64,000 bases of DNA from Acidobacteriota bacterium (GTDB lineage Bacteria; Acidobacteriota; Vicinamibacteria; Vicinamibacterales; 2-12-FULL-66-21), in the NCBI GenBank assembly GCA_003222675.1, contig QHWT01000055.1, positions 230,619 through 294,618 on the forward strand, written 5' to 3'. Position numbers and translations under genes: made by a program. Under the pieces are notes generated by a model. The model made no database searches, was not told the origin of the DNA, and saw only the letters and a list, made by a program, of their open reading frames with translations. Shown piece after piece: positions 7,857 to 12,530 of the stretch (position 1 is the first letter of the stretch; each line of letters starts with the position of its first letter).

Positions 7857-8876
7857 ATGACAGTCGTGCGCACGGTGAGTCAACTGATCCTGATCGGGCT
7901 TCTGGTGCCGAGGCTCAATGGCGCCACGGCTCCCGCGTCGGAACCGGTGAAGCTGACACAACACGGCAGCCAGATCGACGTCGCGATTGGCGACCGGCCG
8001 TTCACCACGTACTATTTCGACCCCGCGCAAGCCAAGCCCTACCTCCAGCCGCTTCGCGCCGCGACAGGCACCGTTGTCTCGCGAGGCTTTCCTGTCGGCA
8101 ACGATGTGCCGGCTGCGCACGTGAAGGATCGATCGCTCGAACCGCACCAGAGGGATTTGTACTTCGCGCACGGCGACATCAACGGCGTCAACTTCTGGGC
8201 CGAGGAGGCGTTCGGCCGCTTCTACGGACAGCAGTCGATGCCGTTCGGACGCACGACCTTCCGCAAGCTCGATGGCGTGAAGAGCGGCAACGATTCAGGC
8301 AGCGCGCGTGCGGAGTTCGCGCTGGAGGGTGCGGGCAAAGAGGTGATGGGCGCCGAAATTCAGGAGTACACCTTCTCGGGCGATCGCGCGACGCGACGCA
8401 TCGACTGCGTGTTCACGATTCGCGCCGATCACGGGCCGCTGACGATCAACGACACGAAGGAGGGGACGTTCGCCATTCGCGTCGCGCCGGAACTGAACTC
8501 GCCGCCAGGCGTCATGGTCAACTCGCGCGGCGGTACAGGCGAGCCGGAGATCTGGGGCAAGCAGGCTGAGTGGGTGGATTATTCCGGCACCATCGGCACG
8601 GAACAGGTCGGCATCGCGATTTTCGATAGCCCTCGGAATTTCCGTCATCCAACCACCTGGCACGCGCGCGGGTATGGCCTCTTCTCGGTGAACCCGTTCG
8701 GTCTGCGCGCATTCACCGACAATCCGAAGGCGGACGGAAGCCACCGAATCGAGCCGGACGGTTCGCTGACTTTGCGCTACCGCGTGCTCATTCATCCGGG
8801 AGACGCGAAACAGGCGAACCTCGCCGACGACTATCGTCGATACGCCGAAGAGGCGCGCGCGGGAGGCGGACGATGA
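7857..8876 (+). CDS. DUF6807 (PmoA-family) exported protein
   Basis: About 339 residues with a plausible signal peptide (SQLILIGLLVPRLNGATA). The hallmark of DUF6807 is a stretch near residues 85-115 reading HQRDLYFAHGDINGVNFW; most relatives have a PHHRGLWF-like version, so the second histidine is replaced here by glutamine. Later segments (GTEQVGIAIFDSPRNFRHP, HARGYGLFSVNPFG) also fit the family. Members are linked to sugar-degradation loci, but no reaction is established. The stop codon overlaps the next start as ATGA, so translation of the two is probably coupled. GGGGGA lies upstream of the ATG as a ribosome-binding site. Confidence 0.8.
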   Translation: MTVVRTVSQLILIGLLVPRLNGATAPASEPVKLTQHGSQIDVAIGDRPFTTYYFDPAQAKPYLQPLRAATGTVVSRGFPVGNDVPAAHVKDRSLEPHQRDLYFAHGDINGVNFWAEEAFGRFYGQQSMPFGRTTFRKLDGVKSGNDSGSARAEFALEGAGKEVMGAEIQEYTFSGDRATRRIDCVFTIRADHGPLTINDTKEGTFAIRVAPELNSPPGVMVNSRGGTGEPEIWGKQAEWVDYSGTIGTEQVGIAIFDSPRNFRHPTTWHARGYGLFSVNPFGLRAFTDNPKADGSHRIEPDGSLTLRYRVLIHPGDAKQANLADDYRRYAEEARAGGGR

Positions 8877-11104
8877 GGTCTGCGGTGATCCCGATCGTGT
8901 CGCTCCTCTTCACAGCGCCCATCGCGGCCGCCGATCCCTTGACGTGTGACGTTGCCAACTACAAGCCGATGGCCGGCCTCGAGGCGCTTTCCGAGGCCAA
9001 TCAACTGACCGTGACGTGGCGCGGACAGGACGAGGCCGACCTGCGGATGCGCTATGGGATCCAGGAGCGTCAGCCAATTGTCCGCGAGTTGGCGATCCGC
9101 GGACCGCGCGGATCGTGGACGCCGCTTGGCGAGAATCTGAGAGCGGAATATGACGTCACGAGCGGCGTACGACGCATGTCGGAGCAGCAGGCGGCGCCGT
9201 TGCGCGGCCTTGGCATTGAGCTCACCAAGGACGTCATCGATCGGAATCGCTGGTTCGCGTTCTGGGACGCCCCGCTGCTCGTGCCTGGCATGCGCGCGGA
9301 TCAACCGACACCACGCAACATCGGGTTGCCGCGCAAGCCTGACGAGATCCGGCGGGCGCACGCCTCATTCGATACGGCATCCTGCAGCGTCAAGACTGAT
9401 GGCTCACGGCTCGAAGTCGAGTTCCCGGGTCTCTCGATCGGGATCTTTTCCGGCGCGCTGCGGTTCACGGTCTATCGCGGCACGAACCTCATTCGAATGG
9501 ATGCCGTCGCGACGACCAGCGAGCCATGGGTCGCCTACAAGTACGAAGGAGGCCTGCAGGGGTTCTCGACCGACGTCGTATCGCGCATCGCGTGGCGTGA
9601 CCAGGGAGGACATCGGCAGCAGTACCGCTTTGGCGGCGTGACCAACGACGCGCGCGTCTCGGTTCGAGCGGCGAACCGGGTGCTCGTCGCAGAAGGACCG
9701 CGCGGCTCCGTCGCCGTATTTCCGCCGCCGCACACGTTCTTCTTCACGCGGGAAGTAGAAACGAATCTCGGATACGTCTGGTATCGCAAGGACCAGGAGA
9801 ACCGATTCGGCCTCGGCGTGCGCCAGGCGGACGGGGAGGACGTGGCCGAGTACAGCGAAAACTTCGCGCTCTACAACGCACCGCCCGGCACGTCGCAGCG
9901 CATGGCCGTGTACTTCTACGCGGGCGCTGGTGATGCGGATGCGACCAGGCAGGCCGCGCTCGCGTTCACGCACGGCGACGTATTCAAGGCGATTCCCGGC
10001 TACAAGACATTCGTCAATCACTTTCATCTGCGATTCACCCAGCGCCTGCGCGCCGGCGGATCGCTCGACCGACAGACCGAGGATCTTGCCGCCATGCGGG
10101 CGCTCGGACTCAACATCGTGGGGCTGAGCGACTTTCATGGCGATCTGCATCCCGACGATCCGGGGCCGCTTCGGTTCAAAGACTGGAAGGACTATGCAGA
10201 GGCCTCGCGCAAGGCGTCCGACGCGGACTTCCTGGTGACGCCGTGGGAGGAACCGAGCGCGTACTTCGGCGGACACTACAACATGATGTTCCCGAAGCTG
10301 GTCTACTGGTCGAAGGTGCGCAAGGCAGGGCAGCCGTTCAAGGAGAACGATTCAGCCTATGGCACCGTGTACCACGCCGGCGATGAGGCAGACGTGCAGC
10401 AGCTGCTCGATGCCGAGAACGGCTACTGGTTTCACGCGCATCCGCGCACCAAGGGCACGACCGGCTTCCCTGATGCCGTGCTCGACAAGCCGTGGGTGAA
10501 AAACGATCGATATCTCGGCGTCGCGTTCAAGCCGGGGATGGGCATGGACCTCTCGGAACCGCGGCTCTGCGAGTGGCGATGCTTCGACGTGACCGACACC
10601 ATGAACAATCTGTTCGCCGCGACGAGCCTCGCTCCCAAGTACATCATCGCGGACGTCGACACGTATAAGAAAGGACCGGAGGACGATCTCTATCCCGCCT
10701 TCCCGGTGAACTACCTGCACCTCGACAGAGTGCCCGGCGCGGAGGACGACTGGACACCGATCCTCAAGGTGCTGCGCGAAGGCGACTTCTTCGTGACGAC
10801 AGGAGAGATCCTGATCCCGCGCTACCACGTTGAAGGTACGGGCCGCCGGCGGACGATCAGTGCGGATGTCGAGTGGACCTTTCCTCTGGAGTTCGTCGAG
10901 ATCGTGTGGGGTGACGGGAAAACCGTCGACCGGCAGATCGTCCGCGCCACGGACCTTCCGGCGTTTGGCACCAGGCGATTCACGCTGCCGTTCGATGCGA
11001 CGGGCAAGGCGTGGATCCGGTTCGCCGTCTGGGACTCTGCCGGGAACGGGGCATTCGTGCAACCAATCAAATTGAACGCGCGCGAGCCGTCAGGCGCACG
11101 ATGA
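8873..11104 (+). CDS. CehA/McbA-like (PHP-type) metallohydrolase domain protein, exported
   Basis: About 743 residues with a signal peptide (IPIVSLLFTAPIAAADP). The first ~370 residues are beta-rich and unassigned. The C-terminal half resembles PHP/CehA-McbA metallohydrolases: GLSDFHGDLHPDD near residue 425, then WEEPSAYFGGHYN and YWFHAHPRTKG, which would supply metal-binding His/Asp residues. An Ig-like tail follows. It overlaps the DUF6807 gene by four bases, so the two products probably act in one process, likely trimming or desulfating a carbohydrate outside the cytoplasm; that role is inferred from neighbours. The fold call is moderately sure, the substrate unknown. Confidence 0.65.
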   Translation: MRSAVIPIVSLLFTAPIAAADPLTCDVANYKPMAGLEALSEANQLTVTWRGQDEADLRMRYGIQERQPIVRELAIRGPRGSWTPLGENLRAEYDVTSGVRRMSEQQAAPLRGLGIELTKDVIDRNRWFAFWDAPLLVPGMRADQPTPRNIGLPRKPDEIRRAHASFDTASCSVKTDGSRLEVEFPGLSIGIFSGALRFTVYRGTNLIRMDAVATTSEPWVAYKYEGGLQGFSTDVVSRIAWRDQGGHRQQYRFGGVTNDARVSVRAANRVLVAEGPRGSVAVFPPPHTFFFTREVETNLGYVWYRKDQENRFGLGVRQADGEDVAEYSENFALYNAPPGTSQRMAVYFYAGAGDADATRQAALAFTHGDVFKAIPGYKTFVNHFHLRFTQRLRAGGSLDRQTEDLAAMRALGLNIVGLSDFHGDLHPDDPGPLRFKDWKDYAEASRKASDADFLVTPWEEPSAYFGGHYNMMFPKLVYWSKVRKAGQPFKENDSAYGTVYHAGDEADVQQLLDAENGYWFHAHPRTKGTTGFPDAVLDKPWVKNDRYLGVAFKPGMGMDLSEPRLCEWRCFDVTDTMNNLFAATSLAPKYIIADVDTYKKGPEDDLYPAFPVNYLHLDRVPGAEDDWTPILKVLREGDFFVTTGEILIPRYHVEGTGRRRTISADVEWTFPLEFVEIVWGDGKTVDRQIVRATDLPAFGTRRFTLPFDATGKAWIRFAVWDSAGNGAFVQPIKLNAREPSGAR

Positions 11105-11321: not shown

Positions 11322-12530
11322 TTACTTCTGATCGGATGGCCTGACTCGCTCGAACGCGGTGAGCGCGGCCCGCTCCGTTTTATCTGCTTCCCGGAGCGTG
11401 TGCATATTGCCCGCGCGCAACCCGTCGGCTCTCATCTGCCAGCTTTCGCTGCGCAACCGCACGTACTCGCCGGCGTCGGCGATGAGCGGCCGCTGTTCGC
11501 GTGCCACCTTGCCGATCGTCCGCAGCGGAGCGCTTGCCGACTGGAGGTCGGGAAGAATCGTACCTTCGATCAAGCTCGCCAATTCCTCCGCGTCCGCGCG
11601 TCCCTTGACGAACTGGTTCACCGCGTGTTGATAGACGCTCGCCGTGCGATCTTCGGCGGCTACGACCTGCGCGATGCTCGGGCCGACATCCGCAATGCCG
11701 CGAAGCGGCACGCTGCACACCACCGCGATCCCCACCATCGCGGCCATGGCCGCGGCGGCGCGACCGAGCGATGGCGTGGTCTCGCCGACGTTCATCGTCA
11801 GCACGAATCCGAACCCGAGGCCCACGACAAGAGCGATCACGTTGCCGACGTTGCCGAGTCCTCCCGTGACGAGCACATAGAGCACGAACACGGCAGCGAC
11901 AGGGCCCAGCCTCTTGACGACGGCCAGCGGGATCGTGAGCGGCGAGCGGCGCAGCACGCCCCAGGCCGACGTCGCGAGCAGCAATCCATAGACGCCGAGC
12001 ACCGGCGACGTCGCGCCTGCATTGGCCAGGAGCGGGTATGCGAACAAGCTCGCGACGCCGCCGGAGATTCCCGTGGCGAAATACACCACAGCAAACGTGA
12101 CATGTCCGACGAGGCGCTCGAGCACGAGGCCGATCACCACCAGCCCGATCATATTGATGGTGAGATCCAGGAATCCCGCGTGGACGAACATCGATGTGAC
12201 GAGGCGCCACCATTCGCTGTTCGTCGTCCGGGGCGCGAAGTTGGCGCCCCATCCGATGAGTGTGTTCGGGTCGCTCATCGCGCCCGCTCCGAACAGCAGG
12301 CCGATGAACACCGCGACATTTACAAACACGAGCGCCGGCGTGACGAGAGCCATCGACGTCCGCGCGCGAAGCGCCGCACGGAACGCGTGTTCCTCCGCAC
12401 GCGGCGCGGCGGCGGCGGCAACCGGCTGCACGGCGTCGACGATGCGGCGCAGCAATCGCACGCGCTCGTCGGACGTCATCACGTAGAGGGCGACGCCGCC
12501 CACAACGACGAGGGCAATGAGGAACATCAT
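11322..12530 (-). CDS. Rhomboid-family membrane protein lacking catalytic residues (pseudoprotease candidate)
   Basis: About 402 residues from ATG 12530; GTG 12557 would add nine residues. The rhomboid fold is clear: an N-terminal anchor, WWRLVTSMFVHAGF before a membrane helix, then GHVTFAVVYFATG and four more helices. In active rhomboids the second helix has HxxxN, a later helix has GxSG, and the last has a catalytic His. Here the HxxxN histidine is Asp (D122, with N126 kept), the serine position is Thr in GATSP (T174), and the histidine position is Asn in VGNVIALVVG (N230). The catalytic dyad is therefore missing, as in iRhoms. A soluble C-terminal tail of about 115 residues follows. A binding or chaperone role is possible but unproven. 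Confidence 0.75.
   Translation of the reverse strand: MMFLIALVVVGGVALYVMTSDERVRLLRRIVDAVQPVAAAAAPRAEEHAFRAALRARTSMALVTPALVFVNVAVFIGLLFGAGAMSDPNTLIGWGANFAPRTTNSEWWRLVTSMFVHAGFLDLTINMIGLVVIGLVLERLVGHVTFAVVYFATGISGGVASLFAYPLLANAGATSPVLGVYGLLLATSAWGVLRRSPLTIPLAVVKRLGPVAAVFVLYVLVTGGLGNVGNVIALVVGLGFGFVLTMNVGETTPSLGRAAAAMAAMVGIAVVCSVPLRGIADVGPSIAQVVAAEDRTASVYQHAVNQFVKGRADAEELASLIEGTILPDLQSASAPLRTIGKVAREQRPLIADAGEYVRLRSESWQMRADGLRAGNMHTLREADKTERAALTAFERVRPSDQK

Follow-up and report, generated by a model that had tools for sequence, protein, structure and literature searches.

A predicted pseudorhomboid clade of gp6 Acidobacteria that lacks the catalytic His and retains a C-terminal helical tail

The 402-residue protein P0002, encoded in the 64,000-nucleotide stretch of DNA analysed here (the window), has a rhomboid fold and lacks the Ser–His dyad of rhomboid proteases, carrying T174 and N230 at these positions. 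Sequence comparisons strongly suggested that it belongs to a bona fide bacterial clade of pseudorhomboids, in which loss of the catalytic His (GlpG His254) is neither recent nor isolated, ancestral to the clade and of single origin. The kept fold and tail suggest that the protein has come to bind membrane proteins rather than cleave them. By analogy with YqgP, Derlins, and iRhoms, the most likely role is that of a membrane-protein adaptor, which we hold with moderate confidence. In eukaryotes, rhomboid pseudoproteases such as the iRhoms and Derlins direct signalling and the quality control of proteins. A search of the open literature found no description of a clade of bacterial rhomboids that lack the dyad.

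The open reading frame runs from 12530 to 11325 on the minus strand, with the stop codon at 11322–11324. Residues 105–245 matched Pfam Rhomboid (PF01694; E 3.5e-20; 73 bits, with the cut-off at 22.6). An AlphaFold model built on 10 sequences (mean pLDDT 73) superposed on GlpG over residues 60–250 (Z 15.4, rmsd 3.2, 173 residues). Both results place the protein in the rhomboid-like superfamily with its six-helix core and bear out the earlier note, which had read the fold and membrane motifs from the letters of the DNA. With the seventh helix included, residues 58–275 of the model superposed on iRhom1 (Z 14.9, rmsd 4.8, 212 residues). The top PDB matches by sequence were iRhom1, iRhom2, and GlpG (E 2.2e-6 for iRhom1/2), and Foldseek with the full model found iRhom1 at no better than E 6e-3. 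Residues 1–57 contain a single membrane helix plus a short linker that is also helical; this membrane helix and the ERxR-type patch were found in all 12 clade members with a complete N-terminus. At the other end of the core, the seventh helix of the model passes straight into the tail. The parts of the gene are as follows.

11322..12530, minus strand: predicted pseudorhomboid gene (P0002, 402 aa), from the open frame, the Pfam Rhomboid match, and 12 further relatives in the order
12477..12530, minus strand: extra N-terminal membrane helix, residues 1–18, with the ERxR-type patch after it (hydropathy run at 10–13)
11781..12359, minus strand: six-helix rhomboid fold, residues 58–250 (Pfam match at 105–245 and GlpG superposition)
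12213..12284, minus strand: L1 loop, residues 83–106, where conservation within the family is highest (pLDDT <50 in the model)
12204..12209, minus strand: WR motif, W108–R109, kept in 11/13
12180..12182, minus strand: H117 at the GlpG His145 position, kept (11/13)
12165..12167, minus strand: D122 at the position of the oxyanion-hole His150, from alignments
12153..12155, minus strand: N126 at the Asn154 position, kept (Asn in 6/13)
12006..12011, minus strand: T174–S175 at the Ser201–Gly202 positions of GxSG, from alignments, one distant alignment being off by one residue
11841..11843, minus strand: N230 at the position of the catalytic His254, from alignments (His absent in 13/13)
11808..11822, minus strand: GxxxG of TM6, G237 and G241, kept in 13/13
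11697..11765, minus strand: seventh membrane helix, residues 256–278, continuous with the tail (predicted helix 255–308), from the model and hydropathy
11325..11696, minus strand: C-terminal soluble domain, residues 279–402, a predicted four-helix bundle, probably periplasmic (tail-only model; 11 invariant columns)

At the catalytic site, the window protein has D122, T174–S175, and N230 where proteases have His150, Ser201–Gly202, and His254, and keeps H117 and N126, just as had been described from the sequence. The assignment is gap-free between the family-invariant anchors G179, Y181, and G182 and G237 and G241. Three alignments placed T174 in the Ser column; the one made with 30 distant rhomboids placed A173 there, a slip of one residue, and none placed S175 there. 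An alternative alignment with Ser175 and another His in the active site was not seen, and no rescuing His was conserved elsewhere in the membrane domain of the 13 clade members except H117 (11/13) and the HxxxN column (7/13). Chance was excluded as the cause of the replacements, as control rhomboids of related genomes kept Ser, His, His, and Asn in 30/30, a set biased toward good rhomboids because it consists of the 30 best Pfam matches. Among the other rhomboids read, Ser and His were kept in 40/41, the exception being L066.

The four positions were replaced to different extents within the clade. The His254 column contained Glu (six members), Asn (two), Lys (two), Val, Tyr, and Met (one each), and the Ser201 column Ser (eight), Thr (two), Ala (two), and Val (one). 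The His150 column contained His (seven), Asp (two), Ala (two), Glu, and Ser (one each), and the Asn154 column Asn (six), Thr (two), Ser (two), Ala, Asp, and Glu (one each). Only the loss of His254 was universal, and the other catalytic positions had changed in many combinations. The earlier note had proposed that the Asp/Thr/Asn set might be conserved as a clade; the loss of the dyad is indeed clade-wide, but the set itself is private to the window protein and occurs in none of the other 12 members. Ser201 is paired with Glu in five relatives and with Lys in one, as might be expected if the window protein or some relatives still cut by another chemistry, in which Ser or Thr works with Glu or Lys rather than His. 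We consider this very improbable: His254 was also replaced by Asn, Val, Tyr, and Met, Ser by Ala or Val in three members, and His150 and Asn154 vary. Moreover, GlpG S201T was reported to be inactive with His254 intact (PMC3093617), and the Thr and Asn of the window protein are therefore not expected to cut.

Relatives of the window protein were found in 13/162 genomes of its order (Acidobacteria, gp6/Vicinamibacteria; own genome included), with one copy each. A narrower search of 100 relatives gave nine genomes (own included) with a full-length match. The class search matched 17/193 genomes, and the four extra matches were intact-dyad rhomboids whose ends differ; by eye, three look TPR-like. 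The phylum sample gave matches in 64/396 genomes, of which 61 lie outside the order. Of the new phylum loci, 27 were read (L026–L052), and all of these kept the dyad. In a tree of 54 rows and 191 columns from which the catalytic columns had been excluded, the 13 pseudorhomboids formed one clade with a support of 100/100, and the loss of the dyad needed two changes, one for this clade and one for L066. No close homologue with an intact dyad, which would have indicated a recent loss, was present among the 13. The clade genes are spread over four families of the order (f1, f2, f6, and f8), and all frames are open over the matched range, L021 being partial at a contig edge. In five members (L007, L008, L009, L010, and L018), GxSG is retained and Glu occupies the position of the catalytic His, a substitution that may have come first in the clade.

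We then compared the conservation of the catalytic site with that of the rest of the protein. Seven catalytic-site columns that show little or no variation in 40 active relatives had a mean entropy of 1.55 in the clade and were no better conserved than random domain columns (P 0.62; 62% of random draws were as conserved). Across the clade alignment, 31 columns were invariant. F115, G134, E138, G142, G154, G179, G182, G237, and G241 were invariant in the clade and present in 90% or more of the active rows. The mean entropy of L1 was 0.91 versus 1.29–1.73 in the other regions, and 2.08 for L1 in the more diverse active set. The WR motif was lost in L008 and L012, the latter also lacking part of L1. 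The window gene is 57% identical to its copy in the congener L057, with a dN/dS of 0.32 for the gene, 0.20 for the N-terminus, 0.40 for the membrane domain, 0.13 for L1 (resting on 28 codons), and 0.27 for the tail, ratios that are rough because dS is near 1. The flanking genes had values of 0.12–0.14, showing that the pseudorhomboid gene is constrained, but less so than its neighbours. Its patchy distribution (13/162), its faster evolution, and the free drift of its active-site positions are what would be expected of a gene in decay but still present. Nevertheless, this explanation is quite unlikely, as none of the 13 frames, which come from four families, is interrupted within its match, dN/dS is well below 1, the 31 columns are invariant, and the loss of His is ancestral to the clade.

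The long soluble C-terminal tail that had been noticed at the outset proved to be a conserved domain, which is also found in certain intact rhomboids. Modelled alone, it was predicted to form a four-helix bundle (mean pLDDT 93, pTM 0.85). Its invariant positions (n = 11) include Y300 and the cluster L359–R360, S363–W364, and R367. If the rhomboid core adopts its usual topology, hydropathy and charge would make the tail periplasmic. A profile built from the 13 tails alone matched the tails of 6/6 intact-dyad rhomboids of another family of the phylum, f40 (E 1.6e-17 to 2.7e-9), and its second round added L032 (1.5e-8) and the Verrucomicrobiota record L068 (1.3e-5); the dyad is intact in all of these. 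Comparison by hhalign of the clade tails with the pooled tails of f40, L032, and L068 gave 98.4% (E 5e-15). The window protein thus belongs to a family of tail-bearing rhomboids with a homologous C-terminal four-helix domain. Class-wide (193 genomes), the profile matched only the 13 pseudorhomboids, and it matched no TPR tails. Two rhomboids that fall among the tailed rows of the 54-row tree, L033 and L067, gave no match to the tail profile; the tail of L033 is cut off. Because the same tail lies behind intact-dyad rhomboids of another family, the tail is older than the loss of the dyad, and catalysis appears to have been dropped from an already tailed rhomboid. In L026, L029, and L031, a zinc-ribbon-like CxxC...CxxC start was seen by eye where the pseudorhomboids have a membrane helix.

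Searches with the tail returned no convincing relatives. By sequence, Pfam gave a weak match to ACC_epsilon (E 0.036), and the PDB gave weak matches to designed proteins (E 1.7e-4 at best, across 27 residues). By fold, only common four-helix arrangements were found (best Z 11.1, below the helical threshold of approximately 13), and the best Foldseek match was cytochrome c' (E 0.065). The look-alikes included ligand-binding domains of the chemoreceptors PcaY_PP (Z 10.4, rmsd 3.2, 118 residues), Tsr (9.5), and Tar (9.1). Together with the 11 invariant columns, the confident four-helix model, and the continuous TM7 helix, they would suit a role as periplasmic sensor or scaffold, with the tail as the working part and the rhomboid bundle as a mere anchor. 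These Z values are nevertheless below the helical-bundle threshold, and designed bundles score equally high. Furthermore, a mere anchor would not require conserved rhomboid fold motifs and L1, yet both are conserved, and we regard such a role as improbable.

Between 2388 and 15735 of the window, the gene is surrounded by genes for a TonB-type receptor, a GH127 beta-L-arabinofuranosidase, an alpha-L-arabinofuranosidase, and DUF6807 and DUF6786 proteins. The setting among sugar-degrading enzymes that the earlier note described is therefore present, but it is common only to the congener L057, in which the neighbourhood is syntenic and two neighbours are 80 and 83% identical. Among the 12 other loci, no widely common neighbour or operon was found, and the setting accordingly says little about function. 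A 743-residue protein encoded at 8873–11104 on the plus strand, beside the arabinose-sugar enzymes, had no Pfam match and is 80% identical in L057.

With respect to function, an adaptor that binds client membrane proteins is favoured because the WR and GxxxG motifs are largely kept when the catalytic residues are not, and because the most conserved soluble parts, L1 and the tail, would both be periplasmic. The ancestor would have been a rhomboid with a seventh membrane helix and a helical tail that lost its catalytic His before the clade diversified, the fold and tail being retained ever since. The rhomboid bundle may engage client transmembrane helices through the WR loop and the GxxxG helix. 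The conserved L1 and the four-helix tail on the periplasmic face may recruit or sense a partner, candidates being a processive protease that would clear the client (FtsH, for example) or a factor for assembly in the periplasm. The periplasmic sidedness, client binding, partner, and link to FtsH are all inferred. Against the adaptor stand the presence in 13/162 genomes, which indicates that the protein is not generally needed in the order, the faster evolution of the membrane domain than of the neighbouring genes (dN/dS 0.40 versus 0.12–0.14), the WR losses, the incomplete L1 of L012, the low model confidence of L1, the absence of the N-terminal domain that YqgP needs as an adaptor, and the lack of a conserved neighbour that would indicate a partner. 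Alternatively, the protein could trap substrates of the cell's own active rhomboids and prevent their cutting, as iRhoms are reported to inhibit rhomboid-dependent signalling (PMC3149277). The same genome has five Pfam rhomboid matches, and the three others that were read keep the full dyad; these three, however, lie far off in the tree, have no tail, and show no genetic link to the window gene. We consider such a trap unlikely.

Loss of the dyad was also seen in other lineages. L066 and L132, from the genus of Flavobacterium sp. MC2016-06, have Pro at the His254 position, whereas both Ser and His are present in the closely related L133 and L134. In this genus, 18 of the 150 genomes drawn matched L066; in one genome (G745), a related copy is broken by a stop. 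A lake bin (uncultured bacterium ErkenSummer_bin-5518) contains four tandem frames of a rhomboid with a tail, of approximately 410 residues each (L070:1214–6455), none of which has both Ser201 and His254; a search of 80 further genomes from the same family gave no match to it. Four changes were needed to explain the loss of the dyad when 74 rows were placed on a quick tree. All dyad-loss groups have a soluble tail that looks helical by eye, and homology of the clade tail to the Flavobacterium-genus and L070 tails was not shown by hhalign (E 0.027 and 0.011; probability <4%). Recurrent loss across bacteria is a lead, not a result, as the starting profile was that of the pseudorhomboids and the Flavobacterium and L070 groups could hold decaying genes. 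Pseudorhomboids might form a recurrent bacterial class rather than one peculiar to eukaryotes, in which rhomboids with a seventh helix, a helical periplasmic tail, and a prior non-proteolytic job of client binding dropped the protease but retained this job independently in several lineages, namely the gp6 Acidobacteria, some genomes of the Flavobacterium genus, and the lake bacterium with its four-gene array. We put this forward tentatively, as possible rather than probable.

Finally, we compared the window protein with known rhomboid-like systems. Scores for rhombosortase (TIGR03902; 38.3 against a curated cut-off of 84) and for the GlpG equivalog (19.7 against 250) did not support membership of either. 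The likeness to iRhoms and Derlins that the earlier note had drawn holds for the pseudoprotease type, but not for the features specific to either group. The iRhom1 and iRhom2 proteins are likewise inactive rhomboids of 6+1 layout; they differ in their long cytoplasmic N-terminus and, as reported in PMC6451368, in a GPx replacing GxS and a Cys-rich domain of approximately 230 residues between TM1 and TM2. The window protein has GAT instead of GPx and an L1 of approximately 24 residues with no Cys, which rules out iRhom membership. The Derlins Der1 and Dfm1 share an inactive rhomboid fold and the WR and GxxxG motifs. Derlin membership was unsupported, since Pfam up to E 1 gave only Rhomboid and a sub-threshold DUF1751. 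YqgP (GluP) of Bacillus subtilis, which has a C-terminal TPR, resembles the window protein as a bacterial rhomboid with extra domains.

According to a review (PMC12615303), yeast Dfm1 recognises misfolded clients via WR and GxxxG, and the cytosolic SHP box of Derlins recruits p97/Cdc48. YqgP is reported to be an active rhomboid that also acts, without its protease activity, as a substrate adaptor for FtsH, to which it presents MgtE, and an open active site and the N-terminal domain are required (PMC7231995). It differs from the window protein in being an active protease and in the N-terminal metal-binding domain required for the adaptor role, which is absent here. This precedent hints that a bacterial rhomboid can double as an adaptor while still being an active protease. 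The closest counterparts were the f40 rhomboids (L026–L031) and the Verrucomicrobiota L068, which share the rhomboid fold, the seventh helix, and the homologous tail, but have their own intact His/Asn/GxSG/His. This dyad-less clade and its like-tailed counterparts with an intact dyad provide matched pairs in which the transition from protease to pseudoprotease can be tested.
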